This document shows positions 5,128 to 19,542 of a DNA stretch of 27,877 nt, in pieces. The translations under genes and the position numbers were made by a program. This DNA is from a virus. Location of the stretch: positions 569-28,445 of IMG/VR virus record IMGVR_UViG_3300002242_000169; one strand, written 5' to 3'. The notes under the pieces were generated by a model, which searched no databases, was not told where the DNA came from, and saw only the letters and a program-made list of their open reading frames with translations. Position 1 is the first letter of the stretch; every line of letters starts with the position of its first letter.

Positions 5128-5205
5128 CATAAATGCTTGACTATCAACGACTTGTGGCAGCGGTCTCCGCGCGCCGAAACCCTTGAGCATCAGGGGTTTA
5201 CAACT
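5128..5205. repeat. Double-hairpin element DHE1
   Basis: Arm 1 at 5128-5156: CATAAATGCTTGA, then TCAACGACTTGTG. The core at 5157-5175 is GC-rich (GCGGTCTCCGCGCGCC). Arm 2 at 5177-5199: AAACCC...GGGTTT with TTGA/TCA at the loop. Arm 2 differs from other copies but still pairs, which is covariation. It lies between a terminator and the next promoter. Confidence 0.8.
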
Positions 5206-5231
5206 ATTTTCGCTCTAGGTGCATTTTTTTC

Positions 5232-5259
5232 TTGCAATTAACCCGAAATCTGTCATAAT
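5232..5259 (+). promoter_or_regulatory. DHE-adjacent promoter (TCTGTCATAAT class)
   Basis: TTGCAA at 5232-5237, a 16-base spacer and CATAAT at 5254-5259 preceded by ATCTGT. The ATG at 5267 is 7 bases past the -10 box. Confidence 0.75.
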
Positions 5260-5266
5260 ATATATA

Positions 5267-5677
5267 ATGAATCGAACAAAAGATGACAAAAGATATGAAA
5301 TTGACTTTGACCGCAAGGTCTTTGTTTACAAGAACCTCCATAAGGATTGTTGGAGCGTTAAGCAGGATGGTTTGGTGAAGGCTCATGCAGAAGACCTTAC
5401 GATCTATTCTGGTTCCATGAAGGTAAATCGTAAGGGTAGGGAAAGAGTCCTAAAGGAAAAGAGAAAAAATGTTCACGCAGGTATCAGAGGATATATTTCT
5501 CACCCCGACCCATCTTTTGCGTGTTGGGATGATATCAAGGGCGAAGAACTCACGCAAATCACTTATAACCCATACAAGCACGAATCGTTTGTCGATAAGG
5601 TTACACAAAAGCCTAGATGGTTCTGCTCTGTAGCGAAACTGAATAAAAAATCGGTCTTTGTTGAAAAAAACGCTTGA
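5267..5677 (+). CDS. Unknown conserved-looking phage protein
   Basis: A 136-residue basic protein that I cannot name. The N-terminus is beta-rich (EIDFDRKVFVYKNL, CWSVKQDGLVKAHAEDLTIY), followed by an Arg/Lys-rich part (NRKGRERVLKEKRKNVHAG). The start is placed at 5267, next to the promoter, rather than at the in-frame ATG at 5219, which lies upstream of that promoter. The stop TGA forms part of the next TTGACA box. Confidence 0.75.
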   Translation: MNRTKDDKRYEIDFDRKVFVYKNLHKDCWSVKQDGLVKAHAEDLTIYSGSMKVNRKGRERVLKEKRKNVHAGIRGYISHPDPSFACWDDIKGEELTQITYNPYKHESFVDKVTQKPRWFCSVAKLNKKSVFVEKNA

Positions 5678-5702
5678 CAAAACCCCGAAAATTTGAGATA
5701 AT
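5674..5702 (+). promoter_or_regulatory. Sigma70-type promoter for the DUF932-like gene
   Basis: TTGACA at 5674-5679, a 17-base spacer and GATAAT at 5697-5702. A leader of about 25 bases with AAAGGA follows before the ATG at 5736, an exception to the leaderless rule. Confidence 0.85.
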
Positions 5703-5735
5703 ATACTTATAACATTAAAAAAGGATAATTAAAAA

Positions 5736-6512
5736 ATGGTTAATATAATAGACACGACTGAGATTCAATCTCCAAAAGTAAATCTTAACATCTGTGGTGG
5801 CAATCACACGAGGGTTGATTTGAGCGAAGTTGCTCAAGTTGAAACTCCCGAAGCTACTGAAACTTGGCGTCCAATCGGACACAATTTTCTCATCAACAAG
5901 GTGCAATCTCGTTTGGAAGATCGAGGTTTTGAGGTTTTGGGTTCATCCCACAATCTTGCCCGTGATGGTCAAAGGTACTTTGGGTTGTTCCAAGTATCCC
6001 ATAAGGATAGAGAGAATAATGAACGAGGCACAATCGTTGGGTTGAGAAATGCTCACGATAAGTGTTTTCCTGCAGGATTGTGTGCAGGAGATGCACCATT
6101 CGTTTGCGACAATCTCATTTTCCACAATGAGGTAACGCTCGCCCGAAGGCACACCAAGAATATCTTGAATGACCTTGACGAGGTAATATCTCGCACGCTT
6201 GGAAAGTTGTTCGGAATGTGGAACAAGCAAGACAATCGGATTGAGGCTTATTCTCAGTTTGATCTTGAGGATTCTCAAGTTAATGACCTTGTGGTTCGCT
6301 CTTGTAAGGCAGGTGCTTTGCCCAAGTCAAAGATTATGGATGTCGTTGAGCAATGGCATGATTCTGATCACGATGAGTTCTCTCATCGGAATATGAATTC
6401 GCTTTACAATGGATTCACCGAAATCTACAAGGGCAACCTCATGGCTTTGCCAAAGCGTTCTGAAGCATTGCACTCTGTGCTTGATGCAGAAGTTGGATTT
6501 AAACTAAACTAA
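5736..6512 (+). CDS. DUF932-like phage protein
   Basis: A 258-residue protein resembling the DUF932 family of phages and plasmids. The central part, residues about 99-130, reads GLRNAHDK, then CAGDAPFVCDNLIFHNE, then RRHT, matching the family's pattern of a N-S/A-H-D-K strand followed by FVCDNL and a charged helix. Molecular function is not established for the family. Translation starts after a leader with AAAGGA at about 5720-5725. The next gene follows 11 bases after the stop, so they are co-transcribed. Confidence 0.75.
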   Translation: MVNIIDTTEIQSPKVNLNICGGNHTRVDLSEVAQVETPEATETWRPIGHNFLINKVQSRLEDRGFEVLGSSHNLARDGQRYFGLFQVSHKDRENNERGTIVGLRNAHDKCFPAGLCAGDAPFVCDNLIFHNEVTLARRHTKNILNDLDEVISRTLGKLFGMWNKQDNRIEAYSQFDLEDSQVNDLVVRSCKAGALPKSKIMDVVEQWHDSDHDEFSHRNMNSLYNGFTEIYKGNLMALPKRSEALHSVLDAEVGFKLN

Positions 6513-6523
6513 GGAATAATATT

Positions 6524-6739
6524 ATGCAGTTAGAAAAAGTACTCGAAAATCACAAAGGTCGATTTGTTTCTCTTCTTGTTCAGCGAGGAGATGAGCGCAA
6601 GCGCCATTCGGTTAAGGTCGGACGTCGCAATAAGCTTGTCTGTTTTAGGGACATGAATGCAGGAAATCGTCGCGTAGTCAAGGGGCAGATCCTTAAAGCT
6701 AAGTGTGGTGACGCTGTTTTTGTCAGTAAGTCGGTCTAG
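6524..6739 (+). CDS. Unknown small basic protein
   Basis: A 71-residue basic protein with alternating strands (RFVSLLVQR, RHSVKVGRRNKLVCF, GQILKAKCGDAVFV), suggesting a small beta barrel, possibly nucleic-acid binding. AAGGA about 10 bases before the ATG gives a normal ribosome site. It is the last gene of the DUF932 operon and is followed by an intrinsic terminator. Confidence 0.7.
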   Translation: MQLEKVLENHKGRFVSLLVQRGDERKRHSVKVGRRNKLVCFRDMNAGNRRVVKGQILKAKCGDAVFVSKSV

Positions 6740-6761
6740 GTTGTAACGTCGCGCATGCGGC

Positions 6762-6795
6762 AAAGGGTCCACCTTAAACGGTGGGCCCTTTTTTT
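6762..6795 (+). terminator. Intrinsic terminator
   Basis: A 12-base stem, AAAGGGTCCACC with GGTGGGCCCTTT (one G-U pair), around a 6-base loop, followed by seven T. It stops the DUF932 operon immediately before DHE2. Confidence 0.92.
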
Positions 6796-6871
6796 GTAAC
6801 CTAATGGCAGTCAACGACTTGCGTGCGCGGGGGCCGCTTTCATAAAGTACTGAGCGCCAAAGCTTTACAAC
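6796..6871. repeat. Double-hairpin element DHE2
   Basis: Arm 1 at 6796-6823 has a weak left half (GTAACCTAATGG) and a standard right half (TCAACGACTTGCG). The core is TGCGCGGGGGCCGC. Arm 2 at 6841-6869 is ATAAAG-...-CTTTAC. ACAACTA and an A-rich tract follow, as in other copies. Confidence 0.8.
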
Positions 6872-6897
6872 TAATTTCAATTTAACAAAAAAAAACC

Positions 6898-6926
6898 TTG
6901 ACTTTACCCTGTTTTCCTGCCATAAT
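6898..6926 (+). promoter_or_regulatory. DHE-adjacent promoter for 6949
   Basis: TTGACT at 6898-6903, a 17-base spacer and CATAAT at 6921-6926 preceded by CCTGC, a variant of the TCTGT class. The ATG is 22 bases downstream. Confidence 0.8.
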
Positions 6927-6948
6927 TATAGAATAACAATTAAGAAAA

Positions 6949-7158
6949 ATGGATAAGTTTATAAATGCAGTTGATTCAGTAGTAATGCTAAAAGTTGGAG
7001 TTTCAGTACACGATATGCCCGACTTTCCCTTCTATGACTATTTTGACGATAGAGTTAAGGTAGGAACGGAAGCATGGAAGGATATGGTTATGGTGTGCGT
7101 AAAGGATTTCTTGTATGATGTGGAATCAGAATACGGATATTTGAATCTTTTTTCTTGA
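6949..7158 (+). CDS. Unknown small acidic protein
   Basis: A 69-residue acidic protein rich in Phe, Tyr, Asp and Val (DMPDFPFYDYFDDRV). No family recognised. There is a short leader without Shine-Dalgarno. The stop TGA at 7156-7158 is inside the TTGACA of the next promoter. Confidence 0.65.
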   Translation: MDKFINAVDSVVMLKVGVSVHDMPDFPFYDYFDDRVKVGTEAWKDMVMVCVKDFLYDVESEYGYLNLFS

Positions 7159-7183
7159 CAATTAGCTGAAAATTTGCGATAAT
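7155..7183 (+). promoter_or_regulatory. Sigma70-type promoter for 7190
   Basis: TTGACA at 7155-7160, a 17-base spacer and GATAAT at 7178-7183. The ATG is 6 bases further on, giving a predicted leaderless mRNA. Confidence 0.85.
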
Positions 7184-7189
7184 ACTATA

Positions 7190-7360
7190 ATGAAGACAAT
7201 AGATATAACACCGAAATGGGAACACCTCATCCATGTAATGATCGAGGTTCTCCAAAACCCTAAAGCATCAGTTGATTCCAAGCGAGAAATTCGTGCGGAA
7301 CTTGTAAAGATGGCAAAGATCATGGATCAACTTAACGAGGAGCAGAAACAAAATGGATAA
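7190..7360 (+). CDS. Unknown 56-residue helical protein
   Basis: The start sits directly at the promoter. The protein is amphipathic and helical (HLIHVMIEVLQNP, then KREIRAELVKMAKIMDQL), with a coiled-coil-like C-terminal half. It overlaps the next gene by 8 bases. Confidence 0.65.
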   Translation: MKTIDITPKWEHLIHVMIEVLQNPKASVDSKREIRAELVKMAKIMDQLNEEQKQNG

Positions 7361-7613
7361 TAACGATTTTACCAAAAAAGAACTTGAGGTATTGTTTGAT
7401 ATTGTTAATGTCTATGACCCAAACGACATAAGCCATGTATATCCCGAAATGGGAAGTGAGGATTTTGTTAGCGAAGTTAAAGGGCTTTTCCACAAACTGC
7501 TAGACGCAGTAAAAGAAGCAGATCGAAAAGAGAAGCATAATCCCGAAAGGTATTATTGGCATCCCGAAGAAGTCGCAAACAGAAAGTGGTGCGAAGAAAA
7601 CAAAGCAAATTAA
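7353..7613 (+). CDS. Unknown 86-residue acidic protein
   Basis: Not recognised. Helical and acidic, with KKELEVLFDIVNVYD near the N-terminus and a charged end containing RYYWHPEEV. The start lies inside the preceding gene, so coupled translation is likely. The next promoter begins 4 bases after the stop. Confidence 0.65.
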   Translation: MDNNDFTKKELEVLFDIVNVYDPNDISHVYPEMGSEDFVSEVKGLFHKLLDAVKEADRKEKHNPERYYWHPEEVANRKWCEENKAN

Positions 7614-7616
7614 TGC

Positions 7617-7647
7617 TTGACAAAACAGACAAAAACTGACAGAATAT
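7617..7647 (+). promoter_or_regulatory. Sigma70-type promoter for 7652
   Basis: TTGACA at 7617-7622 and a GAATAT -10 box at about 7642-7647, with a spacer of 17-19 depending on the -10 chosen. The -10 is weaker than at neighbouring promoters. The ATG follows within 5 bases. Confidence 0.65.
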
Positions 7648-7651
7648 ACAT

Positions 7652-8002
7652 ATGATGAAAACAGAATTAGTAGAAACTAAAAGCATATCACGCCCAAAAG
7701 GGACTTATACTGAGTTTGGACAACTCCAATGGGTTGCCAACAAACCAATTCCTGCGGTTGACTCAGAAGTCGAAGTAAAGATTAACGGCATTGGTCGCTC
7801 AAAAGTAGTCAAGTACTTTGTCGAGCATGGCTTTATAGGTTTAGTTGTTCAACCACAAAATCCACCCACTTGGTATATCGAGCAAAATGGTGCGGATGAG
7901 CCTTGTCATGTATTCCCTGCCGAATGCCTTGAATTTCAAGTTCGCAACGATGACGGCAAAGTAGATGAAGTATTTTACAAGGAAGCACTTCAACCTGTAT
8001 AA
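7652..8002 (+). CDS. Unknown 116-residue beta-rich protein
   Basis: Strand-rich (EVEVKINGIG, KVVKYFVEHGFIGLVV), compatible with an SH3-like or OB-like barrel, with a conserved-looking CHVFPAECLEF near the C-terminus. No family identified. It starts with ATGATG at the promoter and its stop overlaps the next start by one base (TAATG). Confidence 0.7.
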   Translation: MMKTELVETKSISRPKGTYTEFGQLQWVANKPIPAVDSEVEVKINGIGRSKVVKYFVEHGFIGLVVQPQNPPTWYIEQNGADEPCHVFPAECLEFQVRNDDGKVDEVFYKEALQPV

Positions 8003-8253
8003 TGAATTACTCTACAGACGAACATGAATATTTGGATTGGGTAGAACAATCCAATACAGAAAACAAGTATAGTCCTTGCGATATTCACTATGGGGCATAT
8101 ATGCTAGTAGATGACGCATCTCCCGATGCACTACCAAGGTATTTTACGACTCTTGATGGAGCAGTAAGTTGGGCGAAAAACGATAAGCAATACGCATCCT
8201 ATCAAGGAGTAGAGCAATGGTCTGTCTATCAAGTAGGTAGCAAAGTTATGTAA
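8002..8253 (+). CDS. Unknown 83-residue protein
   Basis: An acidic, aromatic-rich protein with a YFTTLDGAVSWAKNDKQYASYQGVEQWSVYQV region, which looks like a small alpha-beta domain. It is the second gene of a TAATG-coupled pair. Function unknown. Confidence 0.65.
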   Translation: MNYSTDEHEYLDWVEQSNTENKYSPCDIHYGAYMLVDDASPDALPRYFTTLDGAVSWAKNDKQYASYQGVEQWSVYQVGSKVM

Positions 8254-8261
8254 CTTTTTGC

Positions 8262-8290
8262 TTGACATTTAACGAAAAATTTAAGATAAT
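8262..8290 (+). promoter_or_regulatory. Sigma70-type promoter for 8297
   Basis: TTGACA at 8262-8267, a 17-base spacer and GATAAT at 8285-8290. The ATG is 6 bases later. Confidence 0.85.
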
Positions 8291-8296
8291 ATAACT

Positions 8297-8488
8297 ATGA
8301 CAACGATAACAGGAAAAGAACAAATTGATGCCTTTCGAGCAAGAGTATTGCTTAGAGGTTTAAAACTAGAAACGCTTGGAATGACCAAACGAGGTCAGTC
8401 TTGCTATGCTATCATAAAGCAAGAGTATGGACTAAAGGGAAGTAAACAAAAGGTTTACGAACAATTCAAGGAGATGTTGGGAGTATGA
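8297..8488 (+). CDS. Unknown 63-residue basic protein
   Basis: Small and helical, with RARVLLRGLKLETLGMTKRG followed by SCYAIIKQEYGLKGSKQKVYEQF. The spacing hints at a small DNA-binding helical bundle, but no defined motif is met. It overlaps the next gene by ATGA. Confidence 0.65.
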   Translation: MTTITGKEQIDAFRARVLLRGLKLETLGMTKRGQSCYAIIKQEYGLKGSKQKVYEQFKEMLGV

Positions 8489-8757: not shown

Positions 8758-8821
8758 GGGCGAGCCAAATATGGAGCAAATATACCCCTCTGCTCGCTCT
8801 CCTCCTCGATTCAACTAAAAA

Positions 8822-8900
8822 ACCTATCCCACTCATGATCAACGACTTATGAGATCGGGGGCCGCGTCCGTAAGCTATTGATACGCAGGGAGTTACAACT
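8822..8900. repeat. Double-hairpin element DHE3
   Basis: The left half of arm 1 is degenerate; its right half (ATCAACGACTTATG) ends at 8851. The core is ATCGGGGGCCGCG. Arm 2 at 8870-8896 is GTAAGCTATTGATAC...GTTAC. The usual ACAACTATTTTTAATTT tail follows. Confidence 0.75.
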
Positions 8901-8925: not shown

Positions 8926-8953
8926 TTGACTTTGCGGTGGAATCTGTCATACT
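8926..8953 (+). promoter_or_regulatory. DHE-adjacent promoter (TCTGTCATACT)
   Basis: TTGACT at 8926-8931, a 16-base spacer and CATACT at 8948-8953 preceded by ATCTGT. The ATG at 8960 is 6 bases further on. Confidence 0.75.
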
Positions 8954-9133: not shown

Positions 9134-9856
9134 ATGATTAAGACAACTATACTTACTTCGGGCAATCAAAAAATTCTCAAGGGCGAGAAACTTGGTTACA
9201 TCACAAAAGGAATTCATTTAGCTCCTGCAAATTTGTCGGGCTACGAAACTTGCCGTTGGCGTTCAAAAGGTTGCACAATGGCTTGTTTGAATACGGCAGG
9301 TCGTGGACAAATGAATATGATTCAAGATTCACGCATTGCCAAGACAAAGCTATTCTTCGAGCAAAAGTTTGATTTTCTCGCTAAATTATCAAAGGAAATT
9401 ATTTCCTCGGTAAAGTCTGCACACAAAAAGAATATGAAAGCAGTTTTTCGACTCAACCTCACAAGCGATTTAATGTGGGAAAATGAGATCAATGAGGATG
9501 GCGTTACTGTATTTGAGAAGCATGGCTCAACTCAATTCTACGATTACACCAAGTCATTTCAACGCATGGCAAAGTTTATCAATCAAGCTGAAGATTTTCC
9601 TTCCAACTACCACTTGACCTTTTCTCGCTCCGAGCATAACGATTCGCTTTGCGATATGGTTTTAGAAATGGGCGGTAATGTTGCGGTTGTATTTCGCAAT
9701 CAGCTACCGAAAACTTGGAAGGGCTTTGAAGTTGTCAATGGTGACGAAACCGATTTGCGTTTCCTTGACAAGAAGGGTGTTGTTGTCGGGCTTATCGAAA
9801 AAGGCAGAGCCAAAAAAGATGAGACGGGTTTTGTGCAGGAAGGAGTGAACTCATGA
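9134..9856 (+). CDS. Gp88-like phage protein
   Basis: A 240-residue protein resembling the phage Gp88 family known from mycobacteriophages and other phages. The signature is a Cys cluster (C40, C47, C51 in CRWRSKGCTMAC), then GRGQM and R-x-AKTKLFF, followed by an RLNLTSDL strand and a central aromatic region. The Cys spacing could bind metal, but the family's role is not established. It starts at the promoter with the recurring ATGATTAAG module and overlaps the following small gene by ATGA. Family assignment is from memory of its pattern. Confidence 0.65.
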   Translation: MIKTTILTSGNQKILKGEKLGYITKGIHLAPANLSGYETCRWRSKGCTMACLNTAGRGQMNMIQDSRIAKTKLFFEQKFDFLAKLSKEIISSVKSAHKKNMKAVFRLNLTSDLMWENEINEDGVTVFEKHGSTQFYDYTKSFQRMAKFINQAEDFPSNYHLTFSRSEHNDSLCDMVLEMGGNVAVVFRNQLPKTWKGFEVVNGDETDLRFLDKKGVVVGLIEKGRAKKDETGFVQEGVNS

Positions 9857-10023
9857 TTGACTATTACGAATCAGCGGAAGGGGTCACAATCTCAAGAGAG
9901 AGAGCTTGCCAAGAGTTAAAGGATCACAATCAAGACGCAAAAGATGTTAACCAATTCTTTGAAGAACTTGGCTTTTTGTCTTACTATAAAGCAACTGATG
10001 TTTTGGCTTGGTTAGGTTACTAA
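9853..10023 (+). CDS. Unknown 56-residue protein ending in DHE4
   Basis: An acidic helical protein (ISRERACQELKDHNQDAKDVNQF) with an aromatic C-terminus (FLSYYKATDVLAWLGY). The start overlaps the previous stop. Its TAA stop at 10021-10023 is inside arm 1 of DHE4. Confidence 0.65.
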   Translation: MIDYYESAEGVTISRERACQELKDHNQDAKDVNQFFEELGFLSYYKATDVLAWLGY

Positions 10024-10095
10024 ACTGTTGAAGCTCAGGCACTTACGTGCGCGGGGTGCGCCCAGCTAACTCGTTGATATTCAAAGCTTTACAAC
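10020..10095. repeat. Double-hairpin element DHE4
   Basis: Arm 1 at 10020-10047 (TAAACTGTTGA, then TCAGGCACTTACG) includes the upstream stop codon. The core is TGCGCGGGGTGCGCCCA. Arm 2 at 10065-10092 is GCTAACTCGTTGA then TTCAAAGCTTTAC. The ACAACTA tail and an A tract follow. Confidence 0.8.
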
Positions 10096-10121: not shown

Positions 10122-10149
10122 TTGACTCTGAGCCGATTTCTGTCATAAT
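10122..10149 (+). promoter_or_regulatory. DHE-adjacent promoter of the tRNA-like gene
   Basis: TTGACT at 10122-10127, a 16-base spacer and CATAAT at 10144-10149 preceded by TTTCTGT. No protein start follows; the next element is the tRNA-like fold about 27 bases downstream of the expected start site. Confidence 0.8.
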
Positions 10150-10183: not shown

Positions 10184-10300
10184 GCCCTCTTAGTTTACAC
10201 TAGGTGAAAACAACGACTTACAGCAGTATACTAGTTAAGCCTGCGAGCGATTGATCATCGTTTTGAGTCGGAGAGGTGAGTTCGAATCTCACAGAGGGCA
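10184..10300 (+). tRNA. tRNA-like gene with an enlarged anticodon loop
   Basis: A cloverleaf is visible. The acceptor pairs GCCCTCT (10184-10190) with AGAGGGC (10293-10299), with discriminator A10300. The D-arm is GTTT/AAAC with GG in its loop (10193-10211). The T-arm is GTGAG, TTCGAAT, CTCAC (10276-10292). The anticodon stem CGAC/GTCG encloses 49 bases instead of 7, an excess of about 42, so no anticodon can be assigned. CCA is not encoded. The insert could be a small intron, a stable insertion or a mark of a decayed gene. The 5' acceptor can be extended by one T-A pair at 10183. Confidence 0.6.
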
Positions 10301-10575
10301 GCAATTTCCTGTAGGTCGCAAGACTGAACAACGAGGCGTCTGAATCCACGCCTACAACCCGAAAGGGAGAGAGGAATAGGGACATAACACAATTTTGAGA
10401 GGCAGTACTACGCCTAGTGGGTCAACCCCTGTAAGCTTTACCAAGTATGGCGACTTGGCTCTCAATTCACTTTTGTTAGCGTAAGTAATCTAGGCTCTTC
10501 ATGTGGGAGGTCTCTATAAGATGATCTCCATGAATCCATAGATGAAAAAACTAACAGATTCAGAGTTTCCCGTCG
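10301..10575 (+). ncRNA. Structured non-coding RNA region
   Basis: About 275 bases without a gene but dense in potential helices. GTC-GCAA-GAC (10315-10324) and CCC-GAAA-GGG (10358-10367) carry GNRA loops. AGGCGT/ACGCCT closes at 10334-10353. TTGAGAG (10395-10401) pairs with CTCTCAA (10459-10465) around several hairpins, including CCAAGT/ACTTGG. GTTAG near 10475 pairs with CTAAC near 10553 around TTCATG/CATGAA. It probably shares the promoter of the tRNA-like gene. No known RNA class was recognised. Confidence 0.5.
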
Positions 10576-11223: not shown

Positions 11224-11432
11224 TGGAGAACGAGTTTGACTCTCCTTTTGTGCTTACTTCCATAGACCAACACGCAATAATTATGAGAAAAAACCATCCA
11301 TACTACAAGGAAAAGAAAACAGATATGTTTCTGAGTTTGGATTGCGTTTTAGCTAACGAAAAAAAACTAATAGATGTAAGTGACCAATTCGGTTACGGAG
11401 ATAACCCAATTTGGGTTTTGGAGGAAAAATAA
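11223..11432 (+). CDS. Unknown 69-residue protein
   Basis: Second gene of a coupled set. It mixes acidic and basic stretches, with IDQHAIIMRKNHPYYKEKK and a C-terminal YGDNPIWVLEEK. The end of this gene provides the GGAGGAAAA ribosome site of the next one. Confidence 0.65.
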   Translation: MENEFDSPFVLTSIDQHAIIMRKNHPYYKEKKTDMFLSLDCVLANEKKLIDVSDQFGYGDNPIWVLEEK

Positions 11433-11644: not shown

Positions 11645-11817
11645 TAGACGAAGAACATCATTATCTTGCCATGCAAATACGAGATTTGCTAGAGAAAAAG
11701 CTTGACCTTACGATTAAAAATCATGGGCTTTGGCGAATACAATGCCTAATTCATGACGAGCTAGAGGAAAAAGATATACTTGAAGGATGCAATGAAGTAA
11801 CCATAAGTTCTTCATAG
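11641..11817 (+). CDS. Unknown 58-residue protein ending in DHE5
   Basis: A helical acidic protein (HYLAMQIRDLLEKKLDL, LIHDELEEKDILEG). Its last codons and stop (to 11817) lie inside arm 1 of DHE5, so the hairpin sequence encodes its C-terminal ISSS. It is the last gene of a four-gene operon. Confidence 0.65.
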   Translation: MIDEEHHYLAMQIRDLLEKKLDLTIKNHGLWRIQCLIHDELEEKDILEGCNEVTISSS

Positions 11818-11876
11818 TCAAGGACTTGTGGGGGCGGGGGCCGCGCAGCTAACCTGTTGATACTCAAGGCTTTGCG
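11802..11876. repeat. Double-hairpin element DHE5
   Basis: Arm 1 at 11802-11830 (CATAAGTTCTTCA, then TCAAGGACTTGTG) pairs over almost all 13 positions and overlaps a coding end. The core is GGGGCGGGGGCCGCGCA. Arm 2 at 11848-11875 is GCTAACCTGTTGA then CTCAAGGCTTTGC. Confidence 0.85.
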
Positions 11877-11900: not shown

Positions 11901-11929
11901 TTGACAAAAGGCTTTTGCTAGTGTAATAT
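11901..11929 (+). promoter_or_regulatory. Promoter for 11939
   Basis: TTGACA at 11901-11906, a 17-base spacer and TAATAT at 11924-11929. The ATG is 9 bases later. Confidence 0.75.
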
Positions 11930-12698: not shown

Positions 12699-12775
12699 CC
12701 CTATCTCGTTGACAGTCAGCCGCTTATGGGCGCGGGGGGCGGATTCCTAAGGTGTTGACATGCAGTACTTTATGG
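12699..12775. repeat. Double-hairpin element DHE6
   Basis: Arm 1 at 12699-12728 (CCTATCTCGTTGA, then TCAGCCGCTTATG), core GGCGCGGGGGGCGG, arm 2 at 12747-12774 (CTAAGGTGTTGA, then TGCAGTACTTTATG). The A tract and a promoter follow. Confidence 0.8.
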
Positions 12776-12808: not shown

Positions 12809-12836
12809 TTGACTTTTGGTCAGATTCTGTCATACT
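12809..12836 (+). promoter_or_regulatory. DHE-adjacent promoter (TCTGTCATACT)
   Basis: TTGACT at 12809-12814, a 16-base spacer and CATACT at 12831-12836 preceded by ATTCTGT. The ATG at 12844 is 7 bases later. Confidence 0.8.
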
Positions 12837-13861: not shown

Positions 13862-13938
13862 CCGTAAGTCTCTGATAATCAGGGGCTTGCGGATGCGGGG
13901 GGCGGTTGCGCAACCCTTTGACTAACAAGGATTTACAC
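13862..13938. repeat. Double-hairpin element DHE7
   Basis: Arm 1 at 13862-13892 is the best hairpin of the set: CCGTAAGTCTCTGA pairs with TCAGGGGCTTGCGG over all 14 positions, including G-U pairs, with a TAA loop. The core is ATGCGGGGGGCGG. Arm 2 at 13910-13936 is GCAACCCTTTGA, then AACAAGGATTTAC. Confidence 0.88.
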
Positions 13939-13961: not shown

Positions 13962-13990
13962 TTGACAGGAAGGGTTTTTTGTGCTATATT
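13962..13990 (+). promoter_or_regulatory. Promoter for the HAD gene
   Basis: TTGACA at 13962-13967, a 17-base spacer and TATATT at 13985-13990. The ATG at 13997 is 6 bases later. Confidence 0.85.
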
Positions 13991-14722: not shown

Positions 14723-14808
14723 ATTGGGATGTAATATTATTATTGCCTTGGGTCGTTGTCTTTTGGGTCATGTTTCGTGACCTATTTAAGGCACAAAAAC
14801 CTTGGTAA
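14719..14808 (+). CDS. 29-residue membrane peptide
   Basis: One clear transmembrane helix (DVILLLPWVVVFWVMF) followed by a positively charged tail (RDLFKAQKPW), so an N-out/C-in orientation is expected. ATGA-coupled to the preceding gene. Its stop TAA (14806-14808) is the TAA of GTAAG in arm 1 of DHE8. Confidence 0.6.
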   Translation: MNWDVILLLPWVVVFWVMFRDLFKAQKPW

Positions 14809-14880
14809 GTCTTTGGTAATCAACCGCTTGTGAGAGCGGGGGCCGATTGCGTAAGTTGTTGAGCCTTAAAGGTTTAGGTT
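14804..14880. repeat. Double-hairpin element DHE8 at the strand switch
   Basis: Arm 1 at 14804-14832 (GGTAAGTCTTTGG, then TCAACCGCTTGTG), core AGAGCGGGGGCCGATTG, arm 2 at 14851-14877 (GTAAGTTGTTGA, then TTAAAGGTTTAG). The plus-strand stop is inside arm 1, and the minus-strand stop (14879-14881) abuts arm 2, so one element serves two convergent units. Confidence 0.88.
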
Positions 14881-15439: not shown

Positions 15440-15736
15440 TTAGGATTCGATTGTGTCGAAAAGGTCAGCGAACGAACCGCTCACGCAATCCATATCAACC
15501 TGTTCCTCATCGTTTTCGTCAATGTCATCCTTGTCGGACTCAACTGCATCGAGAGAAACGAACTCCTCTTCAACTTCCTTCTCGGAAGCGTGTTGAATGC
15601 CATGCTCAAGGACTAAATCCTCGGCGAGCTTTTCGGCTTTGAGTTCTTCAAGGAGTCCTTGAAACTGAGGAGCGACCTTGTTAGCGGAAGCAACTGCGTT
15701 AGCGATTAAAGCGAATCTATCTTTCTCATTTAACAT
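15440..15736 (-). CDS. Acidic protein with APQFQGLLEELKAE motif
   Basis: A 98-residue acidic protein, paralogous to the gene at 17127-17399. Both have an N-terminal helix, then VAPQFQGLLEELKAE, VLEHG-QxAS, F-SLDAVE, and an acidic DSD/DEN tail ending in VDMD-VS. The duplication indicates cassette copying. The acidic tail suggests protein-protein contact. Function unknown. Confidence 0.75.
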   Translation of the reverse strand: MLNEKDRFALIANAVASANKVAPQFQGLLEELKAEKLAEDLVLEHGIQHASEKEVEEEFVSLDAVESDKDDIDENDEEQVDMDCVSGSFADLFDTIES

Positions 15737-15742
15737 AACTAC

Positions 15743-15770: not shown

Positions 15771-15801
15771 GCTAATTCGTATCAAGCTAACTTTTTATGC
15801 G

Positions 15802-15829
15802 GTAAGCTATTGATACTAAGATACTTATG
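15802..15829. repeat. Single DHE arm
   Basis: GTAAGCTATTGA, TAC loop, then TAAGATACTTAT. It has a degenerate partner to the left (15771-15791) and no GC core. Confidence 0.6.
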
Positions 15830-15897: not shown

Positions 15898-15926
15898 CAT
15901 AAAGCATTGATGCTCATAGGGTTATG
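15898..15926. repeat. Single DHE arm
   Basis: CATAAAGCATTGA, TGC loop, then TCATAGGGTTATG. Terminal five and loop-proximal pairs are intact; no GC core lies beside it. Confidence 0.65.
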
Positions 15927-15949
15927 ACATAATTTTTCGTTAAATTTTT

Positions 15950-16022
15950 ATAAGATGTTGACTGTCAGAGACTTGGGCATGCGGCCCCCGCCCTCGTAAG
16001 TTATTGAGGGAGAAGGGTTTAG
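15950..16022. repeat. Double-hairpin element DHE9 (core inverted)
   Basis: Arm 1 at 15950-15976 (ATAAGATGTTGA, then TCAGAGACTTGG). The core ATGCGGCCCCCGCCC reads as the reverse complement of the usual G-run. Arm 2 at 15995-16022 (CGTAAGTTATTGA, then GAAGGGTTTAG). The stop of the minus gene (16024-16026) abuts it. Confidence 0.82.
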
Positions 16023-16023
16023 G

Positions 16024-16326
16024 TTACTTATTGATTGTGAAAAGTGAATCCTTGCCGTCAGAGATCATGACAAAGATTTTGTCTAATTCCTTGCGAGTTT
16101 TGTTCACTTCTTGTTCAAGTTCTACGCCAACTTTTTGAGCGTGACCCTCAAGGATAAACGGCTCATTATCAACGCTTTCTCCATTGAGGAATTTAAGTCT
16201 TCCCTCTATACGGGCAAGAGCAAGGGCGACATTGTCAAACAAGTCACTTCTTACTGCGTTCATGGTTTTAGAAGCGGAATCTATTACATCCCACTTTTGA
16301 TCTATTAGGTCTTTTGTTTTAATCAT
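16024..16326 (-). CDS. Unknown 100-residue helical protein
   Basis: Mixed-charge helices (ALALARIEGRLKFL, then GVELEQEVNKTRKELDKIF) suggest a coiled coil. It starts MIKTKDL at the promoter, presumably leaderless. Its stop abuts DHE9. Not recognised. Confidence 0.7.
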   Translation of the reverse strand: MIKTKDLIDQKWDVIDSASKTMNAVRSDLFDNVALALARIEGRLKFLNGESVDNEPFILEGHAQKVGVELEQEVNKTRKELDKIFVMISDGKDSLFTINK

Positions 16327-16332
16327 AAGTAT

Positions 16333-16361
16333 ACTCTAAAGTAAAAAGGGGGTTTTGTCAA
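16333..16361 (-). promoter_or_regulatory. Promoter for 16326
   Basis: Minus strand: TTGACA (16361-16356), a 17-base spacer, TAGAGT (16338-16333) and the ATG 6 bases on. The -35 box includes the TGA stop of the upstream gene. Confidence 0.75.
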
Positions 16362-16585
16362 GCACCAACTTGAACTAATTCAACTTTTTCAAAGGTGGCG
16401 GAATGCTCAATAGCTTCCTCTTGTGCAAGGATGCGAGCAAGATGGGGAGAACGACCTTGCTTGTCGATTCCTGCAATTCTAACCCTTGGAGCCAATCCAA
16501 TGATTGACGGGCGTGAGCTTGAGACTTCCCAAATTTTAACACTCCAAAAGGTGGAGAACTTTTTTACTTCTATTTTCTTAATCAT
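16358..16585 (-). CDS. Unknown 75-residue protein
   Basis: Starts MIKKIEVKKF; strands (FWSVKIWEVS, RVRIAGIDKQG) are followed by a helix (LARILAQEEAIEHSATF), an alpha-beta pattern. The start at 16585 is chosen for its position after the promoter; there is a leader of about 12 bases. The stop is inside the next promoter. Confidence 0.65.
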   Translation of the reverse strand: MIKKIEVKKFSTFWSVKIWEVSSSRPSIIGLAPRVRIAGIDKQGRSPHLARILAQEEAIEHSATFEKVELVQVGA

Positions 16586-16603
16586 AATCTTTTTTAACTT
16601 TCT

Positions 16604-16632
16604 ATAATACAATGTAACACAGGTTAGCCCAA
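16604..16632 (-). promoter_or_regulatory. Promoter for 16585
   Basis: Minus strand: TTGGGC (16632-16627), a 17-base spacer and TATTAT (16609-16604). The surrounding CTGTGTTACATTGTAT is repeated near 17690-17712. Confidence 0.6.
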
Positions 16633-16640
16633 AACGCAAA

Positions 16641-16754
16641 TTATTTCTTTAGTTTTTTTTCTAAAGCTTTACGGATAGTGGAGAGGACATTTTTCTTGCC
16701 CTTGGCTTTCATGATGAGAGCGAGCTTCTGTAAATTCTTTTTGTTCTTAATCAT
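16641..16754 (-). CDS. Lysine-rich 37-residue peptide
   Basis: MIKNKKNLQKLALIMKAK, then a Lys-rich end KALEKKLKK. Small, basic and helical. Its 3' end is shared with the 24-residue peptide at 17731-17805, both ending KK followed by TAATTTGC. Confidence 0.55.
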   Translation of the reverse strand: MIKNKKNLQKLALIMKAKGKKNVLSTIRKALEKKLKK

Positions 16755-16760
16755 ATGTAT

Positions 16761-16789
16761 AACATACCACAAAAAACGGCATTTGTCAA
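16761..16789 (-). promoter_or_regulatory. Promoter for 16754
   Basis: Minus strand: TTGACA (16789-16784), a 17-base spacer, TATGTT (16766-16761) and the ATG 6 bases further. Confidence 0.8.
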
Positions 16790-16817
16790 GGATTATTTTC
16801 ATTTATTTTAAAAATTA

Positions 16818-16892
16818 CCTAAAGCGTTGGCTATTAGGGGTTTATGCCGCCTGCCCCCGCGCCCGTAAGGCGTTGCCTATTAAGGCTTTACG
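16818..16892. repeat. Double-hairpin element DHE10 (core inverted)
   Basis: Arm 1 at 16818-16846 (CCTAAAGCGTTGG, then TTAGGGGTTTATG), core CCGCCTGCCCCCGCGCC (C-rich on the plus strand), arm 2 at 16864-16892 (CGTAAGGCGTTGC, then TTAAGGCTTTACG). The minus-strand stop at 16888-16890 is in arm 2. Confidence 0.88.
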
Positions 16893-17064
16893 CTAACGCT
16901 ACTGCTAAGAACTTGGAGCGGTTAAAGTGAGGATTAAAAGCCTCGAATTCGTCCGCAAGATTACAGGCAAGCGTTGTAAGGATATTTTCCGCTTGCTCGC
17001 TTGGAGCATTGCGAAAAGAGAGGTTGAGCTTTTCAGCTACTGCGGTGAAGTGTATTCTAGTCAT
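16888..17064 (-). CDS. Unknown 58-residue protein ending in DHE10
   Basis: Starts MTRIHFTAVAEKL; helical (SEQAENILTTLACNLADEF) and ends FLAVALA, with the stop provided by the GCGTAAAGCC sequence of DHE10 arm 2. CCTAAAAAAATATG precedes the start. Not recognised. Confidence 0.6.
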   Translation of the reverse strand: MTRIHFTAVAEKLNLSFRNAPSEQAENILTTLACNLADEFEAFNPHFNRSKFLAVALA

Positions 17065-17070
17065 ATTTTT

Positions 17071-17127
17071 TTAGGTTGTAGTGTAAACGAAAATTGCGGT
17101 ACAAGTTAAAAGCGTAATTAGAAACAT
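17071..17127 (-). CDS. 18-residue hydrophobic peptide
   Basis: TAATG overlap with the preceding gene opens a frame of 18 codons, MFLITLLTCTAIFVYTTT. It is hydrophobic with an LLTC string. It may be translated by re-initiation, or may be chance. Confidence 0.3.
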   Translation of the reverse strand: MFLITLLTCTAIFVYTTT

Positions 17128-17399
17128 TATTCTCCGAAGATTTCACGCATGGACTCAGAAACGGAATCCATATCGACAAGGTTTTCGTCAGAGTCAAAGT
17201 CTTCGACTTCCTCTCTTTCGACTGCATCAAGAGAAAGAAACTCGTCTTTCACTTCGTCATCTGAAGCGTTTTGCACTCCATGCTCAAGGACAAATTCTTC
17301 TGCCTTGAGTTCTTCAAGCAAGCCTTGAAACTGCGGAGCAACTTCTGAAGCGTTCGCAACTGCGTTTTTAATTAGTTCTAGTCTTTTTGATTCTGTCAT
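17127..17399 (-). CDS. Acidic protein with APQFQGLLEELKAE motif
   Basis: A 90-residue paralogue of 15440-15736. Identical blocks include VAPQFQGLLEELKAE and SLDAVE, with an acidic linker (EEVEDFDSDENLVDMDSV) and the end REIFGE. It starts leaderless at 17399. The two copies sit in different cassettes separated by two DHEs. Confidence 0.75.
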   Translation of the reverse strand: MTESKRLELIKNAVANASEVAPQFQGLLEELKAEEFVLEHGVQNASDDEVKDEFLSLDAVEREEVEDFDSDENLVDMDSVSESMREIFGE

Positions 17400-17405
17400 A
17401 AGTAT

Positions 17406-17434
17406 AATCTAAAGGATTTTCAGTTAAAAGTCAA
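17406..17434 (-). promoter_or_regulatory. Promoter for 17399
   Basis: Minus strand: TTGACT (17434-17429), a 17-base spacer and TAGATT (17411-17406), then ATACTT and ATG, as in the promoter of 16326. Confidence 0.8.
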
Positions 17435-17453
17435 GCTTTATTTTCAACTATTT

Positions 17454-17657
17454 TTAGCGTTCGTCCCAAACGCCTGCGTTTTGTTCCATGGACTTAAAGC
17501 CAACTCGATCTTCAAACTCTTGCATTTGGACATCGTGAAGGATGTTTTTCCATTGCTGAAGGTCGTTCTTCAGTTGGTCGATTTCTTGCGAATCGGAAGC
17601 CTTTTCGAGCTTGGCGTTTACTTCTTGGATGCGGAATTTTATTTGGAATGAGGACAT
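17454..17657 (-). CDS. Unknown 67-residue coiled-coil protein
   Basis: A helical heptad-like sequence (FRIQEVNAKLEKASDSQEI, DQLKNDLQQWKNIL). It has a leader of about 35 bases from a weak TATATA at 17693-17698, in which ATAAGATTAAGA looks like a mutated start module (ATG to AAG). Distantly like the other small coiled-coil proteins of the array. Confidence 0.65.
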   Translation of the reverse strand: MSSFQIKFRIQEVNAKLEKASDSQEIDQLKNDLQQWKNILHDVQMQEFEDRVGFKSMEQNAGVWDER

Positions 17658-17730
17658 AATTTTTATTTTAGTAGTTTATCTTTCTTAATCTTATATATAC
17701 AATGTAACACAGCTTGAGCGAAAAAGCAAA

Positions 17731-17805
17731 TTATTTCTTCACTTTTTTTTGTTTAGCTATTACAAATTTGCAAAGGATTTTTTCTCTTTCTGTTAAGTTA
17801 ATCAT
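17731..17805 (-). CDS. 24-residue basic peptide
   Basis: MINLTEREKILCKFVIAKQK, then a short KK-rich end. A very short product from a clear leaderless promoter; the 3' end is shared with the gene at 16641-16754. It may be a shortened version of that gene. Confidence 0.45.
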   Translation of the reverse strand: MINLTEREKILCKFVIAKQKKVKK

Positions 17806-17811
17806 ACCTAT

Positions 17812-17840
17812 ACAGTACCACATAAAACCCCAAAAGTCAA
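17812..17840 (-). promoter_or_regulatory. Promoter for 17805
   Basis: Minus strand: TTGACT (17840-17835), a 17-base spacer, TACTGT (17817-17812) and ATG 6 bases further. Confidence 0.75.
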
Positions 17841-17868
17841 GCTTTATTTTCACTTATTTTACTTTTTT

Positions 17869-17943
17869 CACAAAGCGTTGAATATCAAGCGCTTGGGCGC
17901 ACGGGGGCGGGCCTCGTAAGGCGTTGATTACTAAGGCTTTACG
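17869..17943. repeat. Double-hairpin element DHE11
   Basis: Arm 1 at 17869-17897 (AAGCGTTGA, ATA, TCAA-G-CGCTT, with one bulged G), core CACGGGGGCGGG, arm 2 at 17915-17943 (CGTAAGGCGTTGA, then CTAAGGCTTTACG). The minus-strand stop at 17939-17941 lies in arm 2. Confidence 0.88.
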
Positions 17944-18088
17944 CTGAGAAAAGCCCGTAACGACGAGAGCCGTCATTCGCTTTGGCTCTGCGAAGAAGAA
18001 GCCTTTCGGCGTCTTTCTTTCGCATTGCGATGGATTCGACTTGCCAAACAGCACCTGCTTGGTTGAGGATGGATTTGAGGATGTACAT
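17939..18088 (-). CDS. Unknown 49-residue basic protein ending in DHE11
   Basis: MYILKSILNQAGAVWQVESI, then an Arg/Lys-rich stretch (RKKDAERLLLRRAKA). AAGGA precedes the ATG. A frame continuing through DHE11 was not used because GCGTAA stops translation inside arm 2. Function unknown. Confidence 0.6.
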   Translation of the reverse strand: MYILKSILNQAGAVWQVESIAMRKKDAERLLLRRAKANDGSRRYGLFSA

Positions 18089-18133
18089 ATTTTTTTCCTT
18101 TTTGTTAATGGTTTATCTTAATCTTATGTATAG

Positions 18134-18162
18134 AATATAGCAGAGTTTTCGAAGAAAGTCAA
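18134..18162 (-). promoter_or_regulatory. Promoter for 18088, with leader
   Basis: Minus strand: TTGACT (18162-18157), a 17-base spacer and TATATT (18139-18134). A leader of about 40 bases has ATAAGATTAAGATAAAC, again like a mutated start module, before AAGGA and the ATG. Confidence 0.8.
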
Positions 18163-18171
18163 GAACTTTTT

Positions 18172-18354
18172 TCAGTTATTTTTTACGGCAAGCTTGTCTT
18201 GAGCTTCCCATTCGGCAAGCCAAGACTTGTTTTGCTCGATAAGGCTTTCGAGAATTCCCTTCTCGATGCTATCGGTTGAGACTCTCAAACGGCGTTGGCA
18301 CCATGCGAGGTCGGCTTTAACTTTGGTAAGAACTTCTATTCCTTTGTGATTCAT
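18172..18354 (-). CDS. Small coiled-coil protein, LAW family
   Basis: A 60-residue protein, MNHKGIEVLTKVKADLAWCQ, then RRLRVSTDSIEKG. The DLAW-C/W-Q--L pattern is shared with the gene at 20008-20205, suggesting a divergent paralogue. Two Trp near the end (SWLAEW). The start at 18354 is set by the promoter; a longer in-frame start would run back through it. Confidence 0.65.
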   Translation of the reverse strand: MNHKGIEVLTKVKADLAWCQRRLRVSTDSIEKGILESLIEQNKSWLAEWEAQDKLAVKNN

Positions 18355-18360
18355 AAGTAT

Positions 18361-18389
18361 AATGTAGCAGAGTTTTCGGGTTTTGTCAA
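18361..18389 (-). promoter_or_regulatory. Promoter for 18354
   Basis: Minus strand: TTGACA (18389-18384), a 17-base spacer, TACATT (18366-18361) and ATG 6 bases further. Confidence 0.85.
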
Positions 18390-18421
18390 GAGTTTTTTTT
18401 CGCCTATTGATCGATTTTTCT

Positions 18422-18580
18422 CTATCCGCGAGAATCACCCCAATCACCGAGGACAAGGTGAAGGACTTGAGAAGTGCCCCAACGGCGAACTTCTGCAAGC
18501 TCTCCGCATGGAAGCAAGGAGAGAACGAGAAACATTCCGTCGAAACGGTCGAGAACGATATCATCTTTCTTAATTATCAT
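18422..18580 (-). CDS. Unknown 52-residue protein
   Basis: MIIKKDDIVLDRFDGMFLVL, then CGELAEVRRWGTSQVLHLVLGD. Strand-rich, like a small barrel. Leaderless start with the module ATGATAATTAAGAAA. Frames on the opposite strand here are shadows. Confidence 0.6.
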   Translation of the reverse strand: MIIKKDDIVLDRFDGMFLVLSLLPCGELAEVRRWGTSQVLHLVLGDWGDSRG

Positions 18581-18586
18581 ACAAGT

Positions 18587-18615
18587 AATGTACCATAAAA
18601 ACAGGCAAAAGTCAA
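18587..18615 (-). promoter_or_regulatory. Promoter for 18580
   Basis: Minus strand: TTGACT (18615-18610), a 17-base spacer, TACATT (18592-18587) and ATG 6 bases further. Confidence 0.85.
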
Positions 18616-18641
18616 GAACTTTTTTTCACTTATTTCGTACT

Positions 18642-18716
18642 GTAAGGCCTTGGCTATCAAAGGCTTAGGCGCGCGGGGGCCGCCTTCGTAAGGCGTTGAG
18701 TATCAGCAACTTAGTG
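18642..18716. repeat. Double-hairpin element DHE12
   Basis: Arm 1 at 18642-18669 (TAAGGCCTTGG, CTA, TCAAAGGCTTA), core GCGCGCGGGGGCCGCC, arm 2 at 18687-18716 (CGTAAGGCGTTGA, then TCAGCAACTTAGTG). The minus-strand stop at 18711-18713 is in arm 2. Confidence 0.88.
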
Positions 18717-18881
18717 CGTGATCAACTGCTTTTCTAGCTCGTGGATCTTGGCATCAATGTCAGCCTGTACAGATTGAATCTGATTGGCTTCTGATGCGTT
18801 ACCCGAACGCAATGCGTTAATGCGTTGAAGCGTGAGAGCTTGAAGAGTTGCAACTAGGCGATTTATTTGTTCTTGAATCAT
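18711..18881 (-). CDS. Unknown 56-residue coiled-coil protein ending in DHE12
   Basis: A heptad-like helix over its full length (INRLVATLQALTLQRINAL, ANQIQSVQADIDAKIHELEK). It starts MIQEQ from a leaderless promoter; the stop is inside DHE12 arm 2. Confidence 0.65.
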   Translation of the reverse strand: MIQEQINRLVATLQALTLQRINALRSGNASEANQIQSVQADIDAKIHELEKQLITH

Positions 18882-18887
18882 AGCTTA

Positions 18888-18916
18888 TGTTATGTCAGTT
18901 TTTAGAGTTTTGTCAA
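18888..18916 (-). promoter_or_regulatory. Promoter for 18881
   Basis: Minus strand: TTGACA (18916-18911), a 17-base spacer and ATAACA (18893-18888), or CATAAC with 16. The ATG is 6 bases past. Confidence 0.65.
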
Positions 18917-18923
18917 GCCTTTT

Positions 18924-19115
18924 TTAGTTAAAAAGAGGATGAAGCTTTACATCGCTAAAGCGAATGCCAACCTTGCGATTGGTGCGGTATGGGCGAACCA
19001 TTGCGATAGTACCAAGCTGATCGTGCTTGGTGGCTTGGATAAACTGAAAGACTTTGCCATCTCTAGAGAGAAGAACATCGCCTTTTTGGAATCTATTGGT
19101 TTTATTTTTAATCAT
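18924..19115 (-). CDS. Unknown 63-residue beta-rich protein
   Basis: MIKNKTNRFQKGDVLLSRDG, then KVFQFIQATKHDQLGTIAMVRPY. The pattern of a basic start, KGD turn and several strands suggests an SH3-like small barrel. The start is chosen at the promoter-proximal MIKNK module. Confidence 0.65.
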   Translation of the reverse strand: MIKNKTNRFQKGDVLLSRDGKVFQFIQATKHDQLGTIAMVRPYRTNRKVGIRFSDVKLHPLFN

Positions 19116-19120
19116 ACTAT

Positions 19121-19149
19121 AAGGTAACACAGGTAAAGGTAAATTGCAA
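19121..19149 (-). promoter_or_regulatory. Promoter for 19115
   Basis: Minus strand: TTGCAA (19149-19144), a 17-base spacer, TACCTT (19126-19121) and ATG 5 bases further. Confidence 0.7.
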
Positions 19150-19165
19150 GCAAAATCGTATAAAG

Positions 19166-19390
19166 TTATTCACAATTTGCATAAAAGTAGTCAAGGTTTT
19201 TCATGTAGAGATCAGAAAGCTCCTCCTCTACTTTCACGAGTTCAGGCAAGGCAAGTATTTCGATTGCCATTTCAACAGTCTCGTTGGTTGCAGGAGTTGC
19301 GTCTTTGCGCATCTTTGCAATGGCTTGATTGATTGATTCAACCCTTGACTCTAAAAGGGCGATGTGGATCTTAGTTTCATTCTTAATCAT
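19166..19390 (-). CDS. Unknown 74-residue acidic coiled-coil protein
   Basis: MIKNETKIHIALLESRVESI, then a Thr/Ala-rich linker (KDATPATNETVE) and an acidic helix (LPELVKVEEELSDLYM). First gene of the cassette ending at DHE12. Confidence 0.65.
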   Translation of the reverse strand: MIKNETKIHIALLESRVESINQAIAKMRKDATPATNETVEMAIEILALPELVKVEEELSDLYMKNLDYFYANCE

Positions 19391-19396
19391 ACCTAT

Positions 19397-19425
19397 AACA
19401 TACCAAAGAAATGCCGAAAAGTCAA
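19397..19425 (-). promoter_or_regulatory. Promoter for 19390
   Basis: Minus strand: TTGACT (19425-19420), a 17-base spacer, TATGTT (19402-19397) and ATG 6 bases further. Confidence 0.8.
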
Positions 19426-19466
19426 GAAAAACATTCGACTATTTTCTTGCACAATCTTCTTGTTTA

Positions 19467-19542
19467 CATAAGTTGTTGAGTAGTATAGGCTTACGAGCGC
19501 AGGGGCGGCTTACGTAACTAGTTGACCTTCAGTAGCTTAGCG
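19467..19542. repeat. Double-hairpin element DHE13
   Basis: Arm 1 at 19467-19495 (CATAAGTTGTTGA, GTA, GTATAGGCTTACG), core AGCGCAGGGGCGGC, arm 2 at 19513-19542 (CGTAACTAGTTGA, then TCAGTAGCTTAGCG). Arm 2 encodes the last codons and stop of a minus-strand gene. Confidence 0.85.

Follow-up and report, generated by a model that had tools for sequence, protein, structure and literature searches.

Repeated intergenic elements have been described in both phages and bacteria. The T4-type phages RB49 and phi1 reportedly carry PeSLs (promoter-early stem-loops), mobile regulatory cassettes said to have been described by Arbiol et al in 2010, and in enterobacteria the RIB and RIP elements are IHF-binding BIMEs. 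Here we analyze a repeated element in a window of 27,877 nucleotides (the whole stretch of DNA that was analyzed), which corresponds to bases 569-28445 of the 39,521-base IMG/VR record IMGVR_UViG_3300002242_000169. The element, a 75-bp unit with two palindromic arms around a GC-rich core, lies between transcription units, and homology blocks between related viruses end at or within it. The family is real and widespread and, as far as the literature examined shows, undescribed. The early regions of large phages are thought to gain and lose host-takeover and anti-defence genes, which raises the question of how they are reshuffled so fast; the element seems to be a junction of a new type, at which virus genes are shuffled.

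One close likeness is to PeSLs, which are said to be repeated intergenic units of an early region that is plastic, each beside an early promoter of the sigma70-like type, with modules shuffled between relatives; the elements share these traits, including shuffling junctions between relatives. In contrast to PeSLs, they are letter-conserved double palindromes with a GC core, and they occur in many virus lineages. A PeSL reportedly joins a terminating stem-loop and an early promoter in one unit; here the promoter is adjacent, there is no covarying stem, and terminators stand separately in some cassettes. RIB and RIP are repeated extragenic elements at the 3' ends of transcription units with inverted repeats and IHF sites. 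Unlike them, our elements have IHF-type sites as their arms and the GC stretch as their center, contain no REP sequence, are phage-borne, and coincide with recombination junctions. The best reading by analogy is that the elements may work like T4-type PeSLs and RIB/BIMEs, yet belong to neither family.

Other described systems also resemble the elements in part. The SPbeta repeated element (SPBRE), to which MrpR binds, belongs to a temperate phage, where the 15-bp motif sits in promoter regions (PMC10516654). Like our elements, it is conserved and recurs between the genes of a phage, but our elements are 75 bp and also lie between convergent genes (at 14804 in the window, and at 11229 and 12042 in two related contigs, G005 and G006), although the other copies do lie in promoter regions; the two families are set apart by description rather than by letter-by-letter alignment. 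The original prediction held that the elements recall SPBREs and BIMEs without matching either, and we agree. In the ESAS of cluster K mycobacteriophages, the repeats are 17 bp long, the spacer between them is short and varies, and a 13-bp start-associated sequence goes with them (PMC3203893). They resemble our elements in being pairs of inverted, imperfect repeats that precede some of the small phage genes, but ESAS stay with the same gene families, whereas here we find 29-bp palindromic arms, a GC core, a 3'-end position, and shuffling. Integrons likewise have cassette arrays reordered at a repeated site (attC) after each gene; here, however, no integrase was found in the contigs searched, the cassettes carry their own promoters, and there are no attC R-sites (for the R'/R'' core sites, the best R-site match reached 4.0 bits, 0.41 of the maximum).

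Paired-arm elements in the window

Thirteen paired-arm elements lie within positions 5128-19541. Each is exactly 75 bp, a 29-bp arm, a 17-bp core, and a second 29-bp arm, so that the step from arm start to arm start is 46 bp in all 13. Scanning with the arm motif CGTAAGNNNTTGANNNTCAANNNCTTACG at a threshold of at least 15 of 20 matches yielded 25 matches in the window and none in each of 8 Markov shuffles. With a 75-bp matrix, the window elements score 64-89, and 40 elements of three related contigs score 62-92 bits; the best score in twenty shuffled 56-kb sequences was -5. The core averages 81% GC (117 elements), while the surrounding stretches have 31-44%. The conserved letters form four inverted half-sites (TCAnnnnCTTR) per element plus the GC core. 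Thus the original prediction of thirteen two-armed elements of about 75 bases, dispersed through a phage gene array and with a GC core that is conspicuous in AT-rich DNA, is borne out, with all 13 elements found where it had placed them. The family is non-random, its copy number exceeds that of shuffled sequence, and the array is one of early genes. There are also three single arms, which the original prediction did not include. The features are listed here with their matrix scores; the strand given for an element is the G-rich strand of its core.

5128-5202, plus strand: element 1, score 69.9; flanked by an intrinsic terminator at 5078-5105 and, opposite it, by a promoter -35 at 5232
6795-6869, plus strand: element 2, score 72.8; preceded by a terminator at 6762-6791 and followed by a promoter -35 at 6898
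8823-8897, plus strand: element 3, score 74.2; promoter -35 at 8926
10019-10093, plus strand: element 4, score 74.9; stop of the preceding open reading frame (ORF) in the first arm, 4 bases inside the edge; promoter -35 at 10122
11802-11876, plus strand: element 5, score 88.7; preceding ORF ends within the first arm; promoter -35 at 11901
12700-12774, plus strand: element 6, score 79.2; promoter -35 at 12809
13863-13937, plus strand: element 7, score 82.1; promoter -35 at 13962
14804-14878, plus strand: element 8, score 81.5; between two convergent genes, with stop codons at both edges
15949-16023, minus strand: element 9, score 69.3; minus-strand gene 16024-16326 ends at the right edge
16818-16892, minus strand: element 10, score 77.7; minus-strand promoter -35 at 16789
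17869-17943, plus strand: element 11, score 84.4; a gene ends 4 bases within one edge, and TTGACT lies about 28 bp beyond the opposite one
18641-18715, plus strand: element 12, score 88.7; minus-strand promoter -35 at 18615
19467-19541, plus strand: element 13, score 64.4; minus-strand promoter -35 at 19425
15801-15829, no strand assigned: single arm upstream of minus-strand gene 15440-15736; 16/20 arm match, score 16.0
15898-15926, no strand assigned: single arm that forms a pair with element 9 at a spacing of 51 bp; the 22-nt core between them is AT-rich and conserved
20265-20293, no strand assigned: single arm upstream of the minus-strand promoter 20240-20212, between divergent genes; 15/20 arm match, score 18.0

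The arms had also been read as hairpins that change bases yet keep their pairing, and this part of the prediction is refuted. No significantly covarying pairs were found in 40 aligned elements: covariation was 0.153 compared to 0.177 in shuffled alignments (497 of 500 shuffles reach the observed value), and 71% of cells were paired compared to 72% after shuffling. At the variable arm steps, mostly 3-7 of the 13 elements were paired. In a swap test on three near relatives, hairpins of the true halves were no more stable than those of halves exchanged between elements (z with DNA and RNA parameters of -0.8 and -1.3 for arm 1, and +1.0 and +0.2 for arm 2); clade-wide, the effect was slight for one arm (z about -2.7) and absent for its partner. 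Pairing of the inner halves across the core is disfavored, with true inner halves less complementary than swapped ones (z +3 to +4), and palindromy of the core is barely higher than in shuffled cores (4.44 compared to 4.18 pairs). Because covarying pairs are lacking but the copy number is far above that of shuffled sequence, the family stands and the hairpin reading falls; letters are conserved in place of structure. We rejected double hairpins within the arm, the core, or the whole element, for which the covariation and swap tests give no support. We also rejected the element as a terminator: given the separate intrinsic terminators beside elements 1 and 2, it is not the sole terminator. In an Rfam search of the window the elements matched no family at E<=1, and no tRNA identity was found for them.

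Cassette boundaries and recombination junctions

Each element as a rule separates one transcription unit from the next. An arm commonly contains the end of the upstream ORF, with a recurrent TAA stop four bases inside the element edge (distance -4), and the next ATG often lies 60-74 bp past the opposite edge. A -35 box is found about 24-38 bp outside the edge, and the ATG is most often 6 nt downstream of the -10, so that many leaderless transcripts are expected. All seven of elements 1-7 have a promoter-like -35 at 25-35 bp past the right edge, and elements 10, 12, and 13 have a minus-strand counterpart 26-42 bp past the left edge; at the convergent copies, genes end on both sides. By reading flanks, we found that the promoters of G005, G006, G013, and G016 have diverged, with CTTGCG-type boxes after a T-tract.

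Near relatives of the window (G001, G003, and G004) came from a pattern search and a protein search; G003 equals G001 (99.997% identity). Another candidate relative, G002 (65% GC), was discarded, its match to the pattern being by chance. A terminase search gave 257 relatives, of which 80 were retained for analysis; the best isolate matches were only about 26% identical. The viruses that carry the elements form a large group; they infect bacteria, are uncultured, and come mostly from the sea.

The ends of homology blocks between relatives cluster at the elements: 95 block ends lie within 45 bp of an element center, compared to 40.2 expected by map rotation, and 0 of 2000 rotations reach 95. In 57 element pairs one flank is in common and the other is not. 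The left half of element 7 matches G001 at 10438 and G004 at 3908 while its right half differs (37/38 on the left and 18/37 on the right in comparison to G004), and element 8 forms a one-flank junction with G001 at 11738 (30/38 vs 18/37). For element 12 and G004 at 9852, it is the right half (38/38) and right flank that match and the left flank that does not (flank scores 185 vs 10). In 29 one-flank pairs of close relatives, excess identity on the near side is 0.37 in the shared flank, 0.16 and 0.12 in the near arm, and 0.21 in the near core half; on the far side, it is 0.07 in the far core half (not significant), 0.05-0.06 in the far arm, and 0.03 in the far flank. Since each half-element follows its flank, with the excess falling off past the near core half, we place the crossover in the core. 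Recombination sites were among the functions offered in the original prediction, and these junctions support that option.

Gene order also changes at the elements. The cassette order in G005 is 0-1-2-3-4 (a-b-c-d-e) and in G006 it is 0-3-2-1-4 (a-d-c-b-e), permuted exactly at elements, with the permuted cassettes kept at full length (1381/1381 and 1204/1204 bp) and in the same orientation. Orthologous neighbors in these two contigs are kept in 28 of 28 cases without an element between them and in 10 of 18 across an element (broken in 0/28 vs 8/18). Over all genome pairs, which are not independent, adjacency is kept in 24% of cases across elements and 54% elsewhere (broken in 76% vs 46%).

Core types and spread across viruses and bacteria

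Paired arms occur in 14 contigs of the terminase-relative set, with 117 GC-cored elements, and in some 20 further IMG/VR contigs; a scan with the arm alone gave 44 stretches, most of them with paired arms. In a 211-kb contig, one of the 14, the listed pattern matches all lie within bases 1.9-11.7 kb. Against isolate phages, blastn gave only partial matches of about 28 bp at E 0.6. The arms are common to the lineages, whereas the core is lineage-specific in both sequence and length (13-14, 16-18, 19, 20, 21, 22-25, or 29 nt). Examples are GCGGGGGCCGC in the window, CGGCAGCCG in G005/G006, CGGCGCGCGCCGG in L136, and a tetraloop hairpin in L148. In the group of G005, G006, G009, G011, G013, G016, and G019, the core-side half-sites are mostly GTAAGTGCTTGA and those on the outside GTAAGTCGTTGA; each arm thus has an orientation, and the two are inverted about the core.

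Some arrangements depart from this plan. In a second core type, the arms are 51 bp apart and the core between them, like TTTAACGAAAAATnnTCTC, is AT-rich and conserved; this type is found in the window at 15898-15977, at G001 16339 (L017), G004 6229 (L020), and G015 1936 and 3614 (L110), and is shared with the distant 211-kb contig. At L148 2781-3060, three tandem elements have only ACGAAGAGT (9 nt) between them, with hairpin-core loops ttcg, gaag, gtag, and ctac; they look like emptied cassettes, as if the cassettes had been lost. L135 8642-13239 and L158 3332-4290 have dense runs of arms that are weaker and whose spacers vary, in some cases around sequence that resembles promoters or terminators; the palindrome is the same there, but its arrangement differs. 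At L168 1695-5729 lie three elements of the phage type, each with a GC core of 24 nt, in a contig binned with a Rhodobacteraceae metagenome-assembled genome (MAG), a possible hint of the host.

The strict arm pattern had no match in genome contigs, and a looser one gave bacterial matches. In contigs of a Microscillaceae MAG (G026) picked for holding the arm, TGATWATCA occurs 183 times in 185 kb compared to about 12 expected. The TT-R, outside the search seed, recurs in unselected flanks of these copies, which reach 93% of the maximum IHF score and have neighbors 45-47 bp apart, the phage arm spacing. Over the 6.8 Mb of this MAG (L167, L196-L207), the arm palindrome occurs 276 times with up to 2 mismatches and 892 times with up to 3, mostly in intergenic DNA and sometimes in tandem at 46-47 bp (L199 4579-4812). 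Only 7 of 148 class relatives have any copies; one relative from the class, G113, has 23 copies of a half-related motif, GTTTGATATTGATTATCAAATACTTAC, in which one half-site is retained and the other replaced. Near-perfect single arms occur in Fibrobacter, Akkermansia (17 copies in one MAG), Treponema, and Verrucomicrobia (L166, L169-L185), and in L176 a single arm adjoins a parS-like TGTTCCACATGGAACA. A text search of the literature for the palindrome returned nothing relevant. The hundreds of copies in a Bacteroidota genome hint at a wider IHF/HU-linked palindrome family.

Candidate arm-binding proteins and possible agents of shuffling

Read outward from the center of the palindrome, the half-site is W-A-T-C-A-R-n-n-A-C-T-T-R. 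Compared with the IHF consensus WATCAANNNNTTR, as published in PMC7581858, it reaches 82% of the maximum in 234 phage arms, and 0 of 20000 column permutations equal this value. The IHF consensus was the best of 20 consensus sites compared with the half-site. Each arm amounts to two inverted copies of this consensus with the central W in common. From this likeness, we infer that IHF/HU-family proteins may bind and bend the arms.

Our best reading, which we hold to be about evenly balanced, is that the elements are IHF/HU-bent cassette boundaries that double as recombination junctions. Each 75-bp unit would be a composite DNA site at the boundary of a small early-gene cassette, where an IHF/HU-family protein, most likely the host's, would bind and sharply bend each arm. 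The bends might fold the boundary between the 3' end of one unit and the promoter of the next, and may thereby provide insulation and promoter architecture, while the GC core between them would be where recombination junctions fall. Over evolutionary time, cassettes would be exchanged, lost, and reordered through crossovers inside the core. The simplest agent of shuffling would be homologous or annealing recombination between similar elements; a RecA-like gene is present in G015 and G021.

Several observations weigh against this reading. The likeness to IHF sites was spotted with the motif already in hand. An IHF site normally lacks symmetry, and where two inverted ones have a base in common, only one of them can be filled at a time; some letters outside the consensus are conserved as well (A at +8, C at +9, and G at +14) and need extra contacts. 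The arm spacing varies by lineage from 42 to 60 bp. We found no phage-encoded HU/IHF gene (PF00216) in 12 contigs, which makes a host protein the likelier ligand; otherwise, it would come from missing sequence. Finally, the boundaries that elements mark coincide with those of operons, where rearrangement may come more easily in any case, the genome pairs compared are not phylogenetically independent, and the ORF calls are mechanical.

The arms could instead be multi-copy operators for a phage-encoded regulator that switches the adjoining early promoters, much as MrpR acts on SPBRE or as stoperators are occupied, with shuffling a by-product of the repeats. Indeed, the 29-bp dyads lie 25-40 bp upstream of -35 boxes, single arms also stand upstream of promoters, contacts across 13-bp half-sites would suit a large dimer, and SPBRE was itself only recently linked to MrpR (PMC10516654). 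But the elements between convergent genes have no promoter, many promoters in the array have no element, the arm is present hundreds of times in a Bacteroidota chromosome, and operators would leave the GC core without a role; we consider them possible but unlikely. The early mRNAs might alternatively carry RNA double hairpins as terminators or 3'-end stabilizers, as suggested earlier. The location at 3' ends of genes, convergent pairs included, fits this idea, as do the hairpin cores with varying tetraloops of some lineages (L148). We judge it very unlikely, given the lack of covariation in near relatives, the low core palindromy, the absence of a T-run after the core, the true intrinsic terminators that adjoin elements, and the single arms upstream of promoters.

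If the elements were integron- or pdif-like sites, a dedicated recombinase would exchange strands in the core and cassettes would move as circles. The junctions in the core, the permuted cassettes with orientation kept, the tandem elements of L148, and the oriented half-sites inverted about the core all agree with this. However, we found no tyrosine recombinase (PF00589) in 12 contigs, two of which are 211 kb and 116 kb long, nor any serine recombinase (PF00239) in 7 contigs or Y1 transposase (PF01797) in 7 phage contigs, all of which may be fragments; core sequence and length vary by lineage while the arms do not, and dif, loxP, and attC consensus sites match weakly. We therefore regard such sites as quite unlikely, although a dedicated recombinase may still exist, since the contigs are fragments. 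A related idea, rather unlikely in our view, is that phages carry a counterpart of the integron that lacks an integrase, a site-specific system of cassette exchange. In it, the inverted arms, with their IHF-type bends, would present the GC core for strand exchange to a not-yet-recognized recombinase, reshuffling early genes across a large uncultured virus group. Miniature mobile elements of the REPIN/BIME type, spread by a REP-associated tyrosine transposase, would share the two inverted imperfect palindromes with a short spacer, the 3'-end location, and the hundreds of copies in the Microscillaceae genome, where PF01797 is present. Yet this transposase is missing from the phage contigs, copies sit at cassette boundaries and not at random insertion points, and the GTAG or CGTC tag that defines two large REP super-families (PMC3733652) is absent, the arm ending in C-(G/C)-T-A-A on both sides with no tag outside. 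An origin of this kind seems highly improbable.

Here the junctions can be seen; they recur and are conserved in tens of virus contigs, so that the reshuffling question becomes testable, along with the identity of the arm-binding protein, the role of the core, and the choice between homologous and site-specific exchange. The motif of the arms also offers a sequence handle to find and split cassette arrays in metagenomic viruses.

Other genes in these contigs deserve mention. The minus-strand genes 15440-15736 and 17127-17399 of the window have stretches 78% alike over 86 and 69 bp and are cassette-gene paralogues. A sulfotransferase-family gene (PF03567) lies at 24395-25183 among phage core genes. 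Rfam family RF00005 identifies tRNA genes missed by ARAGORN at 10184-10300 of the window and at 6991-7115 of L017, both on the plus strand (40.1 and 49.6 bits). Both have 47-58 extra bases in the anticodon loop, and the inserts are partly alike though the tRNA bodies differ; these are probably phage tRNAs with a short intron-like insert.

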